Shown piece after piece: positions 9,052 through 44,867 of a stretch of DNA of 50,541 nt. The notes below the pieces were generated by a model that saw only the letters and a program-made list of their open reading frames with translations, was not told the origin of the DNA and did no database searches. The stretch comes from an uncultured Candidatus Peregrinibacteria bacterium. Its GTDB lineage: Bacteria; Patescibacteriota; Gracilibacteria; UBA1369. Within the stretch, counting starts at the first letter, position 1; each line of letters begins with the position of its first letter. The DNA is taken from assembly GCA_937858825.1 (NCBI GenBank), contig CALMAI010000033.1, forward strand, positions 1 through 50,541. Direction: 5' to 3'. The position numbers and the translations under genes were made by a program.

Positions 9052-10641
9052 TTACGCTTTACGCGCAAGCTTTTTCTTCTTTTTGCGGGTGAAAAATCGT
9101 CCGAGTCCAAGTGAACCTCCAAAGAGGAACGCAAGTTCAGGTCCGGTTTCAGGAAGCATGAATGATGCAGTAATACCTTCACTTTCATTACCAGCTTCAT
9201 CACGTGCAGCCAATTTATAGTAGTACTTCACGCCTGAAGAAAGACCAGAAAGATCATAGGTCGATGCATCTGCGCCCAACTGAACACCCTCTCCATAGGC
9301 AATACCATCGGTACTCTTATAAAGAACATAGTTCGCAAGATCTCCGGCAGTATTAAGACTTGGAGTCCAGGCAAGTTGAACGACCATTGAAGAGAGAAGT
9401 TTTGCAACAAAGTTTGTCGCATCTTCAGGAGCTGTTGTGTCAGTAGGAGTTTCTTCAACCGGTTGTTCTTCGGTTGGCTGTTCCTCAACAGGAGTCTCCT
9501 CAGTTGTTGGTTGCTCTTCACTCATTCCAAATCCGGTGAATGCAGCAGCATTATTCGCAACATCCATCAAGTTTCCACTTGCATCAGCAACATCTAAAAC
9601 TACAAGGAAGTAGTTCATTCCTTCCTGCTCCGCAGTCGTAAGAGTCACCATAGTTTTGTCAGCGCTCAAAGCAGCCGCAGAAATAGCCAAAGTTGCAGTA
9701 GAGTCAGACTCCTCAGTAATCACAAAGTTTTGTGTTGGGTCTGGAGAAAGAACAACTGGCTCATTGAAGGTAACAACAACAGTAGTCGCGTCTGGAGTTT
9801 GAATGTTCACCAGTTCCGGACCAGTTGTATCATCAAGAGTTTCCTCTTCAGTAGGAGCTTCTTGATCTGTTCCGGTAAAGATAGCAGTATCAGAAGTTCC
9901 ACTTTCAATAGGATTTCCATCAAGATCAGTCACCTGAATTCCAGCGGTAACAATATAAGTTTGTCCAGGAACCTGGGTTTCAGTCGTTAAAACAACAGTT
10001 TTATTGGTCGGATCATTCAAATCCATAGAAGCAGACAAAACTTGAAGTGCAGTTCCACTTCCATCTTCAGCAATAGAGAAGGCTGAAGTAGGAGAGGCAG
10101 GCAAGTTCACTGCTTCAGAGAAAGTTACCAAAACAGTACCTTTATCCTGAACATTCGCAGAAACAACCTTTGGTGCTTCATCGCCGGCAGCTCCATGAAC
10201 AGGAGTCGCACTCGCTTCCACACTATAATTAGGACTCTCATTACCAGAAGAGTCATACGCTGTAATAGCAAAGTAATAGGTTGTACCATTTTCAAGACCA
10301 GTCATTTCATAAGTGATCTTGTTTCCAACATCAACCGGTTCAAACTCATACTCATCACCTGGTTCAGTTACAGGAGTCGTACCGTAGTACACCTTATAAC
10401 CAGCAACCAGTTCATTGTCGGTCGCTACATCCCATGTAAGAGTAATCATGCCATTTCCAGGAGTAGCCTTCACGTTTTCAACATCAGAAGGAGCCTGGGT
10501 ATCGGCTTGTGCAACATTCTCACTTTCTGGAATAATGTTCGATTGTGCCCTTACAATTGGAAGCGCCAAAATAAGCGCAAGCGCGGTAACAGCCAGAAGG
10601 GCAATGTGCTGCATGACCTGCTTTTTTGCATGTTTGCTCAT
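9052..10641 (-). CDS. LPETG-type surface protein with fibronectin III and Ig-like domains
   Basis: A secreted wall protein. From the ATG at 10641 the signal peptide reads MSKHAKKQVMQHIALLAVTA and continues to cleavage near VRAQS. An in-frame ATG 39 nt upstream is rejected because it overlaps a TATAAT box. Domains in order: a fibronectin type III domain (starts DTQAPSDVENVKATPG); two Ig-like SbsA/Big_5-type domains (VLVTFSEAVNLP and VVVTFNEPVVL); a Thr/Pro/Glu-rich stalk (EEQPTTEETPVEEQP); a second fibronectin domain; and a C-terminal sorting signal with LPETG, a short hydrophobic stretch and a tail of five lysines. LPETG marks it as a sortase substrate. A sortase-like domain is encoded about 10 kb away. 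Probable adhesin or surface scaffold. Confidence 0.88.
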   Translation of the reverse strand: MSKHAKKQVMQHIALLAVTALALILALPIVRAQSNIIPESENVAQADTQAPSDVENVKATPGNGMITLTWDVATDNELVAGYKVYYGTTPVTEPGDEYEFEPVDVGNKITYEMTGLENGTTYYFAITAYDSSGNESPNYSVEASATPVHGAAGDEAPKVVSANVQDKGTVLVTFSEAVNLPASPTSAFSIAEDGSGTALQVLSASMDLNDPTNKTVVLTTETQVPGQTYIVTAGIQVTDLDGNPIESGTSDTAIFTGTDQEAPTEEETLDDTTGPELVNIQTPDATTVVVTFNEPVVLSPDPTQNFVITEESDSTATLAISAAALSADKTMVTLTTAEQEGMNYFLVVLDVADASGNLMDVANNAAAFTGFGMSEEQPTTEETPVEEQPTEEQPVEETPTDTTAPEDATNFVAKLLSSMVVQLAWTPSLNTAGDLANYVLYKSTDGIAYGEGVQLGADASTYDLSGLSSGVKYYYKLAARDEAGNESEGITASFMLPETGPELAFLFGGSLGLGRFFTRKKKKKLARKA

Positions 10642-10678
10642 AGGTTTGTTTTTAGTTTTTATTTTTTTAAATCTAAAC

Positions 10679-10684
10679 ATTATA
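10679..10684 (-). promoter_or_regulatory. -10 box of the LPETG protein gene
   Basis: Perfect TATAAT on the minus strand that overlaps the upstream in-frame ATG (10680-10678). This argues that translation begins at the second ATG (10641), leaving a leader of about 30 nt. No convincing -35 box is seen. Confidence 0.55.
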
Positions 10685-16037: not shown

Positions 16038-18707
16038 ATGAAACGTTTATCCATTTTTACCCTCTTTGCCCTGCTCTTGGGAATTATCCCTACAGCAAGC
16101 GCGCAAACACAAACATTTCCCGACGTCTGGTCATCACACGTCAACTATGATGCCATCGACTACCTCAAAGACGAAGGCATTATTGAAGGTTACCCGGATG
16201 GTGAATATAAGCCATCCATCAACATTAACCGCGCCGAATTTACCAAAATTATTGTCGGAGCAATTGTTGACGATCCACAAGGATCAAACTGTTTCACCGA
16301 TGTACAGGATCAATGGTTTGCCAAATACGTCTGTCAGGCAAGTGAAATGGGAATTGTTGATGGATACCCGGACGGATCGTTCAAGCCAGCCGACAACATT
16401 AACTTTTCAGAGGCGGCAAAGATCATTTCAAATGCGTATGAAAAAGATGCACAGGACGAATTAGGAGAACGATGGTTTAAAGAGTATGTTGATGCGCTCG
16501 CAGAAGAAAAAGCCATTCCATTTTCAGTAAACTTTTTTGACGAAAAAGTCACTCGTGATGAAATGGCAGAAATGATTTATCGCCTCAAGGCCGATGTAGA
16601 AAACAAAGCCAGCCGTACGTATGAAGAAATCAATGCCGATAAATTTGTGACCGTTGATTCATGTGAAGCGATTGTAGAAAGAATCCAGGCCAACAATGTC
16701 TATTATAATTACGGTCTTGGTGGTGGGCTTGGAGCAGTAGAAGAAGATGCCGTTATGATGGACTCTGCTGAAGGAGAGGCCGGAGCAACACCAGCGCCGG
16801 CTACAGCGCCAACAGATGGCGTAGCCAACCAGTCTTCAGAAACAAAAGCTGCCGACGACTACTCAAGCACCAATGTTCAGGTTGCCGGCGTTGACGAAGC
16901 TGACATTGTAAAGAACGACGGAAAATATATCTATCTCATCAAGAACGGAACAATCCGGATTATAGATGCTTATCCAGCCGACCAGATGGAAGAGCTTGTT
17001 TCATTGACTCTTGGTGACGAGGGAGAAGATTTCTGGCCATCAGAAATGTATGTGGATGGAGACACATTGGTCGTTATTGGATCAACCTGGCGTTATGAAG
17101 AGCCGACCATGACTGAAGAGACTCCAGAAACAGCAAAGATGATCGCGCCTTATTACTACCAAAATAGAACCCGTGTATACGTTTTGGATATAACAGACCG
17201 AAACGCTCCAAAAGTGAGCCGAAAAGTTGATTTTGACGGAAGCTATTCAACATCACGAAAAGTTGGAGACACCCTTTACACCGTCATGAACCAATATGCG
17301 TATTACCCATACGATTTCTATGAAAATCCGGGTCAGTACGACTCAGACATGATCATTCCTCACATGATCGACTCAACGCAGGGCGTGGAAGAACTGGTTG
17401 CACCATGTGGAGACATAAAGATATTCCCAAAAGATCAGCGCAATAACTTCCTTATTACAGCGGCAATTCCACTCAACGACACCGACACAAAAATTGCCCG
17501 AAACGTTCTTATTGGAAGCGCCGACAACGTTTACGCATCCCGAAAAAACATGTACGTCACGGCAACCGATTGGAGTGGAGGATGGGAGCGTCCAGTAAAT
17601 GAAACAACAACTGCCATCTACCGTTTCGCTCTTGGCATCAACAATATTGAATACGCGAATAGAGGAAACGTTCCAGGGCATGTACTCAACCAGTTCAGCA
17701 TGGATGAGTATGCAAATAATTTCCGCATTGCAACCACTACAGACAACTGGGAGGAGGGGGCAAGTAACAATCTCTATGTTCTAGATCAAAACATGAATCT
17801 GGTAGGATCACTGGAAAACATTGCCAAAGGAGAAAGCATTTTCTCTGTTCGATTTGCTGGAAACCGTGCCTACATGGTCACTTTCCTACGTGTCGATCCG
17901 CTCTTTGTCATCGGACTTGAAGATCCATCTAATCCAAAAATCCTTGGAGAACTCAAAATTCCAGGATTCAGCAACTACCTTCACCCATTCGATGAAAACC
18001 ATTTAATCGGATTCGGAAAAGATGTAGATCCTGGAGATTCAGAAGTCGATGATGACGATTTTGTCCTCTGGAATCAGGTTCAGGGACTCAAAATAGGACT
18101 CTTCGATGTTACTGACGTGAATAATCCAAAAGAGCTCTACAGCGAAGTAATTGGAGATCAGGGCACCGATAGTCAACTCCTCTACAATCACAAAGCCCTT
18201 CTCTTTGACAAAGAAAAAGAGCTGCTGGCATTCCCAATTTCAGTCTATGAATACCAGGACGAAAGCAGCTGTCAGGATTACACCTATTCAAGCTGTCCAA
18301 GTGACTGCCGCCGGATCTGTGAGCCGTCAGTCTGTAACTTTGATAACGGCATCCTCGTTTGTACAGCCGACTGTGACGGGCCAAGCAGTTGTGTTCCACA
18401 AGAGTTGAAGTACGGACAAAAAACTTTTGAAGGAGCCTACGTCTACAACCTCAACCTGGAAGACGGATTCACCTTAAAAGGAAAGATCAATCATCACGAT
18501 GAAGATGACCTTTCAAACCTCTCTGAAACCGGATGGGTAGATTACCAAAAGGCTATTGATCGACTGGTCTATATTGGAGAAAATCTCTACTCTATTTCAC
18601 AATGGGGTATTAAGGCCAACCTCCTGGACAACCTGACAGAATTGAACTTCATTGAACTCGCCGGCAACTACGACGGCGGATACTTTGATCAGCCAATTCC
18701 ATTATAG
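16038..18707 (+). CDS. SLH-domain protein with secreted beta-propeller domain
   Basis: An 889-aa secreted protein. Signal peptide MKRLSIFTLFALLLGIIPTASAQ. Three SLH motifs follow at about residues 27-75, 85-135 and 145-195 (FPDVWSSHVNYDAIDYL, GIIEGYPDGEYKP, INRAEFTKII; then MGIVDGYPDGSFKP). These bind secondary wall polymers. An Ala/Pro/Thr linker leads into a beta-propeller domain of the archaeal/bacterial secreted family (VQVAGVDEADIVKNDGKYIYLI near residue 280) extending to the C-terminus. A cysteine-rich insertion at about residues 743-786 has eight Cys in about 43 residues. Likely an S-layer or surface-display protein held by SLH motifs. Has its own terminator. Confidence 0.9.
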   Translation: MKRLSIFTLFALLLGIIPTASAQTQTFPDVWSSHVNYDAIDYLKDEGIIEGYPDGEYKPSININRAEFTKIIVGAIVDDPQGSNCFTDVQDQWFAKYVCQASEMGIVDGYPDGSFKPADNINFSEAAKIISNAYEKDAQDELGERWFKEYVDALAEEKAIPFSVNFFDEKVTRDEMAEMIYRLKADVENKASRTYEEINADKFVTVDSCEAIVERIQANNVYYNYGLGGGLGAVEEDAVMMDSAEGEAGATPAPATAPTDGVANQSSETKAADDYSSTNVQVAGVDEADIVKNDGKYIYLIKNGTIRIIDAYPADQMEELVSLTLGDEGEDFWPSEMYVDGDTLVVIGSTWRYEEPTMTEETPETAKMIAPYYYQNRTRVYVLDITDRNAPKVSRKVDFDGSYSTSRKVGDTLYTVMNQYAYYPYDFYENPGQYDSDMIIPHMIDSTQGVEELVAPCGDIKIFPKDQRNNFLITAAIPLNDTDTKIARNVLIGSADNVYASRKNMYVTATDWSGGWERPVNETTTAIYRFALGINNIEYANRGNVPGHVLNQFSMDEYANNFRIATTTDNWEEGASNNLYVLDQNMNLVGSLENIAKGESIFSVRFAGNRAYMVTFLRVDPLFVIGLEDPSNPKILGELKIPGFSNYLHPFDENHLIGFGKDVDPGDSEVDDDDFVLWNQVQGLKIGLFDVTDVNNPKELYSEVIGDQGTDSQLLYNHKALLFDKEKELLAFPISVYEYQDESSCQDYTYSSCPSDCRRICEPSVCNFDNGILVCTADCDGPSSCVPQELKYGQKTFEGAYVYNLNLEDGFTLKGKINHHDEDDLSNLSETGWVDYQKAIDRLVYIGENLYSISQWGIKANLLDNLTELNFIELAGNYDGGYFDQPIPL

Positions 18708-19749: not shown

Positions 19750-22700
19750 ATGAAACAATTACGCATTCTTCAACTCCTGATCGTTTCACTCGGTGCGGTT
19801 TTAAGTCTGTCTATAGCTCCACCAGCATCAGCGGCAACACTCACCGTTAATGAGTACACAGATGGAGCAGAATCAGGAAATACATCTGGAACATGTAATC
19901 TTCGTGAGGCTATTCAGGCTATAAACAATGGAGCAGACATTGCAGGGGATTGCACAGCAACCGGAACATATGGGACTGCCGACGAGATCCAGTTTACAGG
20001 AACCTTTCCGCAGACCTACACGCTCACATGGGATGCAGGAGGAGGGACTGCGCACCCACTTATCGTTGATAACGACGTTACGATTACCGGTCCAGGCTCT
20101 GGAAGCCTCACTATTGATGGAAATGAGGAGGCTCAGGTCTTTTTCCTAGGGAAAGAATATACCGGGACAGGAGTCACATTCGACCTTTCAGGAATCACTC
20201 TGGCCAATGGAGACGCAACGGTGGCATTTGGATCATATGGGTACAATGCCGGAGAAGGAGGTTTAATCTACAGCCAGGATGGTGGAGATATAACCCTGGA
20301 TGACGTCATTTTAAATAGCGGTAACTCCGCAGGCGGAGGAAATATCTATATTGGAGCAAACTCCACAGCGACAATCAATGATACACAAATCATAGATGGA
20401 CAGTCGTTATTTGGTGGAAGAGGGGGAGGAATTTATATAGGAACCGGATCAGAGGTAACCATCACAAATTCCATCATTAATGGGAATACAACGGCAAGCC
20501 AGAACGGAGGGGGAATTTATTCTGATGCAGTACTCCTGGAAATACGAAATAGTACAATAAGCAACAATCTAACAGATACGAATAACTCTGATTTCGCCCA
20601 AGGAGGAGGGATCTTTTCTGATACGCAGGCAGGTAGCGAATTTATACTGGTGGATAGTCGGGTTTTCAACAATTTTGCCCCAACCGATGGAGGAGGAGTT
20701 CTTACAGATGCAGATTCAATTTTCATAGATGGAACAGAAGTGAGTGGTAATACAGCGGATGCCAGCGGAGGTGGAGTAAAAATCGGCGGGAGTAATGCAG
20801 TAATCATCAATTCAACACTCAGTGGGAACCATGCTGGGTCGGAAGGTGGAGCCTTTAATCTCGTCGGAACAGGGTTTGTCTATTTCATCCACAGTACAAT
20901 CACTGCCAACACCATTACAAATCAGACCCGGGGAGCAGGGCTTCATTTTGCGAATAGCGGTAATATGCACCTTATTGGGACAATTTTGGCAGAAAACAAT
21001 ACAACAGGAGACAACGACGACTGCTTTACTTTTGACACCCCGACCATTACGTCAGGAGGATACAACCTTATTGGTGTGAATAACGGATGTTCAGCATTTT
21101 TTACACCGGATGGATCAGACATCGTTGGAACATCAGCTTCACCGGAAGCAGCAAATCTTCAGGCTCTGGCGGACAATGATGGACCTGATTCACCGACAAC
21201 AACCCCCCAAACACATGAGGTCACAGTAGCATCAACCAATGTATGGGAAGCAATTCCAGCTGCAACATGCACGAACACATTTACCGCCGCCAACTACGGC
21301 CCGGGAGGGAGTGTAGTCGATACCACAGCACATCCATTTGGGACAAACGTCCTTGCCGAGTTCGCGGCTATCACTCTCCAGGACCAAAGAGACTATCCCC
21401 GCCCTGGAATGACCGATTGTGAAATTGGGGCATTCGAAAATGCAACATTGGCAGTCTACGATTATGGTGACGCCCCAGATTCATACGCAACACTCACTGC
21501 ATCAACAGGTGCATTCCACACGATCGATGCAGATCTTCTTATGGGAACAGCTGTCGATGATGAACTGGATGGACAACCAACAGCATCAGCAGATGGAGAT
21601 GACCTCAACGGAACAACCCCGGACGATGAAGATGGGGTAACCTTTTCAACTCTCGCTGAGTCAAATAGCGGGACTGCGGATGTTCAAATCATAAATAACA
21701 CAGGAGGAAACGCCTACCTTCAGGCATGGATCGACTACGACAGCAATGGAGCATTCGACGCTGGAGAGCAGGTTGCTACCGACGTTGCAGCCAACGCATC
21801 TGGAACAATAAGCATTAATATATCCCCTCCACCAGGCTCAGCAGGAACCACATATGCCCGTTTCCGGCTGACTCCAACAATGGGACTTGGATCAAGTGGT
21901 GATGGAGGAATAGGAGAAGTGGAAGACTATCAAATTACTATCAACAATAGTGATTCAACAGTATCATCAGGTGGTGGAGGTGGTGGAGGTCGATCCACCC
22001 CGCTGCAGATCCCGCAACCATCAGAAGATCCACCGGAAGAGTCCCCGGAAACCCCACAAGACCCGGAAGAATTAATCGAAGCCGCGATTGAAAAAGTTGC
22101 GGAAGCGCCACCACGACAACTTGTCCGCGTAAAGGACGACCTGGTTCATACTCAGGTCTGGCCACGAACCGGCGTCGACGCCACTATCTCATCCGCTTTG
22201 GCACGAGTGTACGGAGCAACATCTCCATTCAGTGATTTGGACATAAACCATCTCTATTTTGAACCAACAGTGGTTCTCTATCTGCAAGGAGTTGTTGAGG
22301 GATATCAGGATGGAACTGTTCAGTTGGAGCGTCACATATCGCGTGTCGAAGCATTGAAGCTCATCCTCTACACCACAGAATCCACTATTTTCGAAGATAA
22401 CCGCGCAATTTTCCCAGATACAGAAGAAGGAGCCTGGTATCAGCCATACCTCAATACAGCCCTGTATTTTGAGCTCATTGGAGGTTATGAAAACGGCAAT
22501 TTTGGACCAAATGATGATGTTACCTTTGGTCAGGCTTTCAAAATGATAAGTCAAATACTGAAATTTACCGTTTCAGAACAGGAGCAAACCGAACAACATT
22601 GGGCAGAAAAATACGCTCACGAGCTCCGCAAAAGAAATATCATCCCTCCAGAACTGAACAGCAATGAGCTCTACGATCAGCCAGTAACACGCGGCCAACT

Positions 22701-23178
22701 CTTTGCACTTATTTATCGTGCAATCATGTTTGTCGATCACGATCACGAAGCCTTCCTCGATACCATCGAATTAAGTATTCCAAAATTGAATATCAATAAC
22801 ATCCCAGTCCAGAGAACAGTGCTCAGCACAACCGCTATCTGGCTCAGAGATATTATTGATAGCACCGGCTTTTACGAAAATCCCCTTCCGGAAAAGAACG
22901 GACAATTGGTTATCTTTGGACATTCATCAAAATATATTTGGGATCCAAACACTTTTGGAACAATTTTCCGCCCATTTATCAACGATCTTAATGTTGGGGA
23001 CACGGTAGAATTGAGCATAGCCCGAACCGTCCACACATACGAAATTACGAACAAGGAAAAAGTACCGGAAGAAAATATCGACAATCTCAAAAATAATACC
23101 AGCGACCTCATTCTGTTTACCTGCGATCTAAACATCACGCAGCGATGGGTCTTTTCAGCAAAGGAGATCACACAATAA
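19750..23178 (+). CDS. beta-helix/GEVED/SLH surface protein with C-terminal sortase-like domain
   Basis: An 1142-aa secreted multidomain protein. Signal peptide at 1-28 (ending PPASAA). A CSLREA-type start (TCNLREAIQAINNG) leads a right-handed beta-helix rich in GGGIY-type turns to about residue 560. A GEVED module follows (about 570-735: DYGDAPDSY, WIDYDSNGAFDAGEQ, GEVEDYQITI). A glycine run and Pro/Glu linker (740-790) come next, then three SLH motifs (about 824, 886, 950: FSDLDINHLYFEP, GVVEGYQDG, PVTRGQLFALIYRA). The last 140 residues resemble a sortase: IELSIPKLNI, VIFGHSS (His1058), LNVGDTV, LILFTC (Cys1125) and QRWVFSA (Arg1132), the complete His-Cys-Arg triad. No transmembrane anchor is present. 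Probably a wall-bound adhesin that carries its own transpeptidase. Confidence 0.88.
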   Translation: MKQLRILQLLIVSLGAVLSLSIAPPASAATLTVNEYTDGAESGNTSGTCNLREAIQAINNGADIAGDCTATGTYGTADEIQFTGTFPQTYTLTWDAGGGTAHPLIVDNDVTITGPGSGSLTIDGNEEAQVFFLGKEYTGTGVTFDLSGITLANGDATVAFGSYGYNAGEGGLIYSQDGGDITLDDVILNSGNSAGGGNIYIGANSTATINDTQIIDGQSLFGGRGGGIYIGTGSEVTITNSIINGNTTASQNGGGIYSDAVLLEIRNSTISNNLTDTNNSDFAQGGGIFSDTQAGSEFILVDSRVFNNFAPTDGGGVLTDADSIFIDGTEVSGNTADASGGGVKIGGSNAVIINSTLSGNHAGSEGGAFNLVGTGFVYFIHSTITANTITNQTRGAGLHFANSGNMHLIGTILAENNTTGDNDDCFTFDTPTITSGGYNLIGVNNGCSAFFTPDGSDIVGTSASPEAANLQALADNDGPDSPTTTPQTHEVTVASTNVWEAIPAATCTNTFTAANYGPGGSVVDTTAHPFGTNVLAEFAAITLQDQRDYPRPGMTDCEIGAFENATLAVYDYGDAPDSYATLTASTGAFHTIDADLLMGTAVDDELDGQPTASADGDDLNGTTPDDEDGVTFSTLAESNSGTADVQIINNTGGNAYLQAWIDYDSNGAFDAGEQVATDVAANASGTISINISPPPGSAGTTYARFRLTPTMGLGSSGDGGIGEVEDYQITINNSDSTVSSGGGGGGGRSTPLQIPQPSEDPPEESPETPQDPEELIEAAIEKVAEAPPRQLVRVKDDLVHTQVWPRTGVDATISSALARVYGATSPFSDLDINHLYFEPTVVLYLQGVVEGYQDGTVQLERHISRVEALKLILYTTESTIFEDNRAIFPDTEEGAWYQPYLNTALYFELIGGYENGNFGPNDDVTFGQAFKMISQILKFTVSEQEQTEQHWAEKYAHELRKRNIIPPELNSNELYDQPVTRGQLFALIYRAIMFVDHDHEAFLDTIELSIPKLNINNIPVQRTVLSTTAIWLRDIIDSTGFYENPLPEKNGQLVIFGHSSKYIWDPNTFGTIFRPFINDLNVGDTVELSIARTVHTYEITNKEKVPEENIDNLKNNTSDLILFTCDLNITQRWVFSAKEITQ

Positions 23179-23493: not shown

Positions 23494-23841
23494 ATGAAGA
23501 ACAAACATCAACTCACGCTTGAGTTTGCAAATCTCAAGATTAATACCAACACGCGAGAGGTCACCAGAAATGGACAACCCATCGATCTTCGCAAAAAAGA
23601 GTACGAGCTTTTGGAATTCCTGGCCAGAAATAAAGATAGAGTGCTCAACCGACTGACCATTCTGGAATATGTCTGGGATTACACCACCAGCATCGAAACA
23701 AACACCTTGGAAGTTCACATCGCCGCACTCCGCAAGAAAATCGACACCGAAAATTCACGGCGAATCTTCCAAACCATTCGGGGATATGGTTATAAACTCT
23801 GCGACGCCGCAGAGCCATCTTTATCAGAAACCGAAGCTTAA
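23494..23841 (+). CDS. orphan OmpR/PhoB-type winged-helix DNA-binding protein
   Basis: A 115-aa protein that is essentially only the effector domain of an OmpR-family response regulator. It has the beta-sheet start (FANLKINTNTREVTRNGQPIDL), the recognition region KKEYELLEFLARNKDRVLNRLTILEYVWD, and the winged end VHIAALRKKIDTENSRRIFQTIRGYGYKL. The receiver domain and phosphorylatable Asp are absent and no kinase is nearby. It binds DNA by family; its target and signal are unknown. GGAGTT / AACTCC inverted arms (23453-23458 and 23484-23489) flank the leader. The 3' end overlaps convergent ctpA by 4 bp. Confidence 0.88.
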   Translation: MKNKHQLTLEFANLKINTNTREVTRNGQPIDLRKKEYELLEFLARNKDRVLNRLTILEYVWDYTTSIETNTLEVHIAALRKKIDTENSRRIFQTIRGYGYKLCDAAEPSLSETEA

Positions 23842-42818: not shown

Positions 42819-44867
42819 ATGAATATATTCGATTTCATCAAAACCAACCGCACAATCGCACTCTACGTTGTACTTGGAATCATAGGGACAGTAGTCGCGA
42901 TTGCAGCTATCTATCTGGGAGGAAATTTGTACCAGGGAAGTTTGATCAGTTCAACACAGTTGAATCAATCACTTCAAAACGTAACGACCAATCAGCCAAG
43001 CCAGATTCAGGTCCAGACAACACCAGCCACAGGTGGACCAATAACGTGTTCCGGTACACCAAATCCGGCAGATCCAAACCAATCTGTCACATGGACAATG
43101 GTCGTGAATGAAGCCATGCTGCAGGAGGAGGATCCATACATTGATATAGAATCATATTTCTGGAGCGGGGATACATCGGGAGGAACAGCAAATTCAGAAA
43201 AAACATTCACTGTTTCATATCCAAACGGTAAAACGACAGCAACAGTAACACCAATTGTAAGCGTTCTTACTGGTCCGGACAATTATGAAGATATAGCCGG
43301 AACACCATGCTCAATCACCATCAATTCAACAACACCATCCAACACCGAAAACCAGACACAAACAGAAAATCCGGCATCACAGGCCACAATCTCTTGTACA
43401 GGATCTCCAAATCCTGGAACCACGGGACAAATTGTTACCTGGACCATCTTCGTCGATGAAGCCAAGCTTATGGAAGAGCAGCCACATAATGGCATAACCA
43501 GTTACTTCTTTTTGGATGAAGATGGCAAAGCCCCTGGGCAGGAATCAGAAAACGGAAAAGTTTTAAAAACTGTCTACCCGGCAGGCACAACATCGGCCAC
43601 GCTCACTCCAGTTGTGAACATTCTGACAGGACAAAATTTCGACACTGGAATTGAAGGAGAGGATTGCTCAATCACACTTGAAGATCCAGCTCCAGAAAAC
43701 GAAAACCAGGAAGAGGAAAACGAAACACAAACAACAGAAGAAACAGAAACCACCACCGAACTTGTCGACACGGAAGAACAGACAACAGAAACGCAAACCG
43801 GAACACTCCCGGCAAAAGACATTCTCACCTGCGCTTTTACACCAAAACCAATCATTCAGGAAAAGAACGAAAGCGCATTGGCAATTTGTGGATTGAACGA
43901 AAGCGCTCTTGTGGAAGCTTACATTATGCCGGCATCATTCACGCCGAGCGAAACAATCGACACTTCAGCAGCAATCACAACCATCCTGCCAAAAACATCA
44001 AAACAGGCAGCACCATTTAATCTGTCCTGGAATGCCCAAAAAGATAAATTCAATCAGCCGGTTGCGGAGGGAACATACACATTCGTTGTCGCAGCCAGGC
44101 CAAACAATCAATACTTACCAGATCTATCAATTCGTGAGTTTACTGTCCTGGCAAAGGAGCCGGAAGTAGAGCCAGAGCCAACTCCACAGCAAGAGCAGAC
44201 TCCGACAGAAACAACACAAACAGAAACCACAGAGCAAGATCAGCAGCCATCACCAACAACGCAAACAAGCGCATGTGAAGGAGTTGACTACCCAAGTGAC
44301 ATTGCCGGACACTGGGCTGAATCAATCATCAAATCAGCCTACGACGCCTGCCTCATCCAGGGTTACGAAGATGGAACCTTCCATCCGGATCAGGCAATTT
44401 CCAGAGCAGAAGCTGTAAAACTTGTCCTTTCACTGGCGGGAATCAGTCCACACCAGGGTTGCTACAGCGCTAACTGTGGAGCCGGTTATCCAAATAACTT
44501 TTTCAACGATATTACCGCAACATGGCAGGGACCATGGGTTCGCGCGGCATGGGATGAAGGAATTGTCGAAGGATACGGGGCAAACGAATTTGGTCCGCAA
44601 TTCGCTATAACACGTGCAGAAGCAACTGCTCTCACTGCACGAACATTCAAGGTCCCGGCACACCAGGGTTGCTACACAACCAACTGTGGAGCCGGACATC
44701 CTGACAATCTTTTTAACGACATCACAGACGCATGGCAGGGACCATGGGTTCGCACAGCCTGGGATAACGGATGGATCAGCGGCACATCAGCCAATCGGTT
44801 CGAACCAAACCGACCAATCACCCGAGCCGAACTCTTAAAAATGGCAAAACTTGCCGCAACCAACTAA
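42819..44867 (+). CDS. SLH-domain surface protein with two tandem Cys-paired beta domains
   Basis: A 682-aa protein with an N-terminal transmembrane/signal-anchor helix (about residues 13-35, IALYVVLGIIGTVVAIAAIYLG). Two homologous beta domains follow (about 75-170 and 190-285). Each starts with a Cys in CSG/CTG-x-PNP and ends with CSIT, and shares TVSYPNGKTTATVTPIVSVLTG / TVYPAGTTSATLTPVVNILTG. A Thr/Glu-rich stalk comes next, a third beta domain, and a second Thr/Gln-rich stalk. Three C-terminal SLH motifs start near residue 490 (AGHWAESIIKSAYDACLIQGY). Between them a Cys-containing insert, HQGCY..NCGAG, occurs twice. The stop is 1 bp before the next gene, the second giant protein, so the two form an operon. 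Confidence 0.88.
   Translation: MNIFDFIKTNRTIALYVVLGIIGTVVAIAAIYLGGNLYQGSLISSTQLNQSLQNVTTNQPSQIQVQTTPATGGPITCSGTPNPADPNQSVTWTMVVNEAMLQEEDPYIDIESYFWSGDTSGGTANSEKTFTVSYPNGKTTATVTPIVSVLTGPDNYEDIAGTPCSITINSTTPSNTENQTQTENPASQATISCTGSPNPGTTGQIVTWTIFVDEAKLMEEQPHNGITSYFFLDEDGKAPGQESENGKVLKTVYPAGTTSATLTPVVNILTGQNFDTGIEGEDCSITLEDPAPENENQEEENETQTTEETETTTELVDTEEQTTETQTGTLPAKDILTCAFTPKPIIQEKNESALAICGLNESALVEAYIMPASFTPSETIDTSAAITTILPKTSKQAAPFNLSWNAQKDKFNQPVAEGTYTFVVAARPNNQYLPDLSIREFTVLAKEPEVEPEPTPQQEQTPTETTQTETTEQDQQPSPTTQTSACEGVDYPSDIAGHWAESIIKSAYDACLIQGYEDGTFHPDQAISRAEAVKLVLSLAGISPHQGCYSANCGAGYPNNFFNDITATWQGPWVRAAWDEGIVEGYGANEFGPQFAITRAEATALTARTFKVPAHQGCYTTNCGAGHPDNLFNDITDAWQGPWVRTAWDNGWISGTSANRFEPNRPITRAELLKMAKLAATN

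Follow-up and report, generated by a model that had tools for sequence, protein, structure and literature searches.

The stretch of DNA analysed here (the window, 50,541 nucleotides) derives from an uncultured Peregrinibacterium and encodes a 1142-aa secreted protein (19750..23178, + strand) in which an adhesin, SLH repeats and a C-terminal sortase are fused. A sorting-type pentapeptide, WPRTG (residues 804-808), separates the adhesin passenger from the SLH-sortase unit and had been missed in an earlier note on this DNA. The protein probably joins an enzyme to its own substrate in cis, as a natural 'self-sorting' adhesin whose sortase would cut T807|G808 and transfer its own adhesin while the SLH repeats would hold the enzyme on the wall. 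If so, one chain would unite an enzyme with its substrate, the cleavage site and a wall anchor, a different way to build a bacterial surface. To our knowledge, the surface biology of ultra-small bacteria such as these is almost unknown.

Domain architecture

The open reading frame begins with a signal peptide-like sequence, followed by the passenger, a beta-helix-like adhesin region (residues 29-568, 19834..21453) with weak, below cut-off matches to CSLREA and choice-of-anchor Q. The GEVED module recognized in the earlier note is recovered by Pfam at residues 656-730 (PF20009, E 1.6e-11; 21715..21939), and a low-complexity Gly/Pro/Glu linker follows (residues ~739-784, 21964..22101). The conserved block RVKDDLVHTQVWPRTG (residues 793-808, 22126..22173) ends in WPRTG, with the predicted cut T807|G808 at 22170/22171. 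Three SLH repeats (residues ~827-991, 22228..22722) precede the sortase domain (residues 1005-1142, 22762..23175), all on the + strand. Pfam scores only the middle repeat (residues 888-929, E 1.3e-11); as degenerate copies on either side are recognizable by alignment with relatives, 'three SLH motifs' was a fair description.

The proposal that the adhesin terminates in a sortase-like domain is borne out by a match to Pfam Sortase PF04203 over residues 1008-1139 (E 9.5e-11; 2.6e-12 using the last 162 aa alone), which at 42-47 bits passes the curated cut-off of 26.6. None of the NCBIfam sortase classes (C, D, E and others) matched at cut-off, the best reaching ~20 bits against 140-165. The triad proposed earlier (H1058, C1125 and R1132) occupies the expected register: a profile from eleven relatives aligns all three residues with those of solved sortases, of which 4d70 matched best (E 2.6e-8). 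AlphaFold models made with two input sequences, for the whole unit and for the isolated sortase, reached pLDDT values of just 38 and 35, too low to be informative. From the profile matches, the C-terminal domain is expected to adopt the eight-stranded beta-barrel of sortases, and the triad suggests that the fused sortase may be catalytic. An N-terminal membrane anchor is usual, albeit not universal, among sortases, whose substrates are separate proteins. This anchor is absent from the window protein, as the earlier note held, the signal peptide being the sole strongly hydrophobic stretch upstream of the sortase. The protein can thus be described as an SLH-linked, non-membrane sortase fused to an adhesin.

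The genome of the host contains 71 SLH matches and encodes one CsaB-type pyruvyl-transferase homologue (PS_pyruv_trans, E 7.1e-48), a type of enzyme that modifies the SLH ligand. SLH repeats in the protein and a putative pathway for a pyruvylated-polymer ligand in the genome are therefore found together, which is consistent with wall tethering through the SLH repeats.

Distribution and relatives of SLH-linked sortases

Four SLH-linked examples, represented by their sortase domains only, served as queries against 353 class genomes and retrieved many proteins of ~370-450 aa. Those that were read come mainly from families f19 and f24; they have a signal peptide but no other membrane anchor, end in a sortase that is preceded by an SLH or SLH-like region, and mostly share the active-site strand TCWPPDSxxxRY. 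The search for further SLH-sortase fusions suggested in the earlier note thus shows them to be widespread, and the window protein is not an isolated oddity, as sortases in passenger-less SLH proteins are common across the class. The passenger-bearing form is a distinct clade. In this smaller set, which includes the window protein, passengers are often very long, with total lengths of up to 4811 aa; one genome (G326; L082, L083, L084, L085, L086 and L114) holds six members, including the longest, and five of the six carry both a passenger and an hPxTG motif (h = hydrophobic). The tree places the clade apart from short SLH-sortases and anchored sortases (100/99), with long internal branches. A second profile, built from the sortase domain only, recovered 14 clade members in 7 of the 353 genomes, a count that refers to MAG sequences, a rare clade and unequally sampled families. 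A draw of 380 phylum genomes yielded nothing beyond weak matches in any other genome, the same-genus orthologue was the only match in a scan of genome contigs, and scans of viral contigs gave no matches. The passenger-less SLH-sortases of family f24 (L092, L093, L096, L097 and L100) have a conserved neighbourhood, in which genes resembling a DNA clamp (367 aa) and a nucleotidyltransferase lie beside the SLH-sortase.

A conserved internal hPxTG site

An hPxTG site lies between the passenger and the SLH unit in 10/10 passenger-bearing members that possess the catalytic Cys, nine of them independent. Relatives had been gathered by their sortase domain alone, and the first set was assembled before the motif was sought in it. 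Except for the same-genus orthologue, the nine independent members are only 24-42% identical to the unit of the window protein, and the site occurs as VWPRTG (window protein and orthologue), IIPKTG, ILPRTG, IIPSTG, RIPFTG, VIPQTG, VWPKTG, LYPLTG and VLPRTG. In a nine-sequence alignment of the ~360-aa unit just eleven columns are invariant, and six of these belong to PxTG (P25, T27 and G28) and the triad (H278, C345 and R352). The motif mostly ends an ungapped block, R..D[DN].......PxTG, the exceptions being a 2732-aa copy in G326 without the DD part, a 492-aa copy with Ile for Arg and a G317 member with NN for DD. A conserved Lys ahead of the motif, as in pilins, was not invariant among the members. 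In shuffled 66-aa segments hP.TG arises by chance at 0.003-0.026 per segment; the product over nine proteins is tiny but is no probability, as the proteins share ancestry. Elsewhere in the passengers, hP.TG occurs only twice in 11,559 aa. The motif-bearing proteins form one clade, and shared descent therefore explains part of the conservation. The conserved cis WPRTG fits a sortase that links its own protein.

One member has lost site and catalytic residue together. The 525-aa sequence from G225, truncated at its start where the contig stops, has LFTSAED for LFTC and VFPQLGEY for PxTG; it is a single case. In the 492-aa member from G326, like that from G225 out of sample, motif and Cys are both present. 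Two complete, passenger-less members (392 aa in G326 and 374 aa in G317) start just after the motif position and have no motif, a weak test because an upstream deletion would give the same result. No hPxTG was found ahead of the enzyme in 30 membrane-anchored housekeeping sortases or in ~30 passenger-less SLH-type sortases, and ~35 sortases of another type contained no such site but one chance-like VPGTA. A possible independent case of the passenger-site-sortase arrangement is a protein from G063 (L035 7317-9746, - strand), an 809-aa repeat adhesin without SLH that ends in a sortase of the other type, with LPNTA between passenger and enzyme; it is the one passenger-bearing sortase of that type.

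Proposed mechanism and alternative explanations

In the proposed mechanism, the exported protein would be kept non-covalently on the wall by its SLH repeats, which would replace the usual membrane anchor. The fused sortase would then recognize hPxTG (here WPRTG), either within its own chain or in an adjacent copy of the protein, and C1125 would cut T807|G808 to give an acyl-enzyme with the adhesin. The adhesin passenger would be passed to an amine, which could belong to the wall or to another surface protein, and the SLH-sortase part would remain with an N-terminal Gly. An SLH-sortase with an N-terminal Gly could itself act as acceptor of such an acyl group. We infer cleavage, its cis or trans course and the nucleophile from sequence. 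Engineered fusions of SrtA and LPETG-bearing proteins, for example BISOP, are self-cleaving (PMC2901362), so a cis geometry is feasible in principle. A more elaborate form of the mechanism, which we regard as doubtful, is surface 'sortagging', in which self-cutting would leave SLH-sortase anchors whose N-terminal Gly would make a good acceptor, and paralogous adhesins, such as those of the six gene copies in G326, could be swapped or chained among the wall-held anchors at the outer surface.

The foremost alternative is that the wall-tethered sortase works only in trans on other surface proteins and that R..DD...PxTG is a structural hinge or docking element. This explanation gains some weight from the passenger-less SLH-sortases, which have no cis site, occur widely in the class and, if active, must act in trans. 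However, the pentapeptide that closes the block is a canonical sorting sequence, the block goes along with the presence of a passenger, and G225 has lost both the block's motif and the Cys. That the site might be common to other SLH proteins was also considered and rejected: among 30 SLH stretches checked in the same genome, only the window protein has hPxTG ahead of its SLH repeats. An exclusively trans-acting enzyme appears unlikely on these grounds.

WPRTG could also be cut by an ordinary housekeeping sortase, with the fused sortase serving another role. The genome does encode a membrane-anchored sortase (C9:28211; PF04203, E 1.4e-28), and a sortase match is present in 90/99 relatives. The same window further encodes a 542-aa exported protein (9052-10680, - strand) with the canonical LPETG sorting tail LPETGPELAFLFGGSLGLGRFFTRKKKKKLARKA, missed by the Pfam anchor model, which is likely a substrate of the housekeeping sortase. 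A genome-wide search for LPXTG tails with PF00746 gave sub-threshold matches only, and of four sites retrieved with the pattern [LF]PETG only that of the 9052-10680 protein is a true sorting tail. In a 402-aa frame at L198, LPETG directly precedes a membrane segment (residue 72), an arrangement opposite to that of a normal sorting tail and probably due to chance. Two observations make cleavage of WPRTG by the housekeeping enzyme improbable: WPRTG is not followed by the hydrophobic stop and basic tail needed for membrane retention, and the G225 genome retains an ordinary sortase although motif and fused Cys have both disappeared from its clade member.

Selection was assessed against the orthologue from the same genus, encoded in a MAG labelled Candidatus Peregrinibacteria (isolate HKST-UBA20); the last 162 aa of the two proteins are 98% identical. 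The sortase region has a dS of 0.42 and an omega (dN/dS) of 0.029, the lowest in the protein, compared with 0.053 for the SLH repeats, 0.065 for the passenger and 0.157 for the weakly constrained linker; the sortase is thus the part under the strongest purifying selection. The motif block is no more constrained than its surroundings in this comparison (omega 0.126, from only 7 changes). That the protein is an ordinary S-layer adhesin whose sortase domain has decayed into a non-catalytic structural module is very improbable, as none of the eleven other aligned clade members departs from His, Cys and Arg and omega is this low, even though several clade members escape Pfam at E 0.001 and the Cys has been lost in one member.

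Comparison with known systems

The window protein shares features with several known systems. With the sortase family (PF04203; 4d70 and SrtA structures) it shares the domain match and the His-Cys-Arg triad in register, but it lacks a transmembrane anchor and carries the sortase at the C-terminus of a long adhesin. LPXTG wall-anchored proteins (Gram_pos_anchor) likewise present an adhesin passenger followed by a PxTG pentapeptide; there, motif, hydrophobic stretch and basic tail are C-terminal, whereas in the window protein this tail is absent and the motif is internal, ~335 aa from the end, and followed by SLH repeats and enzyme. SLH repeats, together with a genomic pyruvyl-transferase homologue, are shared with SLH-domain S-layer-associated proteins; the window protein differs in its transpeptidase-like domain and sorting motif. 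The passenger-less SLH-sortases (~370-450 aa) likewise lack a membrane anchor and join a signal peptide, SLH or SLH-like sequence and a C-terminal sortase, but they form a separate clade without passenger or cis motif and mostly with TCWPPDSxxxRY in place of the TCD....RW of the window clade. Engineered self-cleaving fusions also place sortase and LPxTG site in one chain; these are man-made with the enzyme first, whereas the window protein is natural, with the enzyme last and a wall-binding domain between. It would represent a natural counterpart of engineered self-cleaving sortase tags and a directly testable self-ligating module.

In the open-licence literature we found no description of an SLH-sortase or of a natural cis sortase-substrate protein. 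A Peribacteria genome paper lists just 'a sortase A' (PMC4736985), and a CPR-wide survey reports that more than half of CPR possess a sortase family (PMC6744442).

Neighbouring genes

Just upstream of the sortase gene, a gene at 16038-18707 (+ strand) encodes a protein that combines a Beta_propel domain (E 2e-167) with SLH repeats. On its other side, the sortase gene adjoins a gene for a 115-aa stand-alone OmpR-type DNA-binding domain (Trans_reg_C) without a receiver domain (23494-23841, + strand). Further along the window, a gene at 42819-44867 (+ strand) encodes a 682-aa protein that is exported or anchored in the membrane and has three SLH repeats at its C-terminus.
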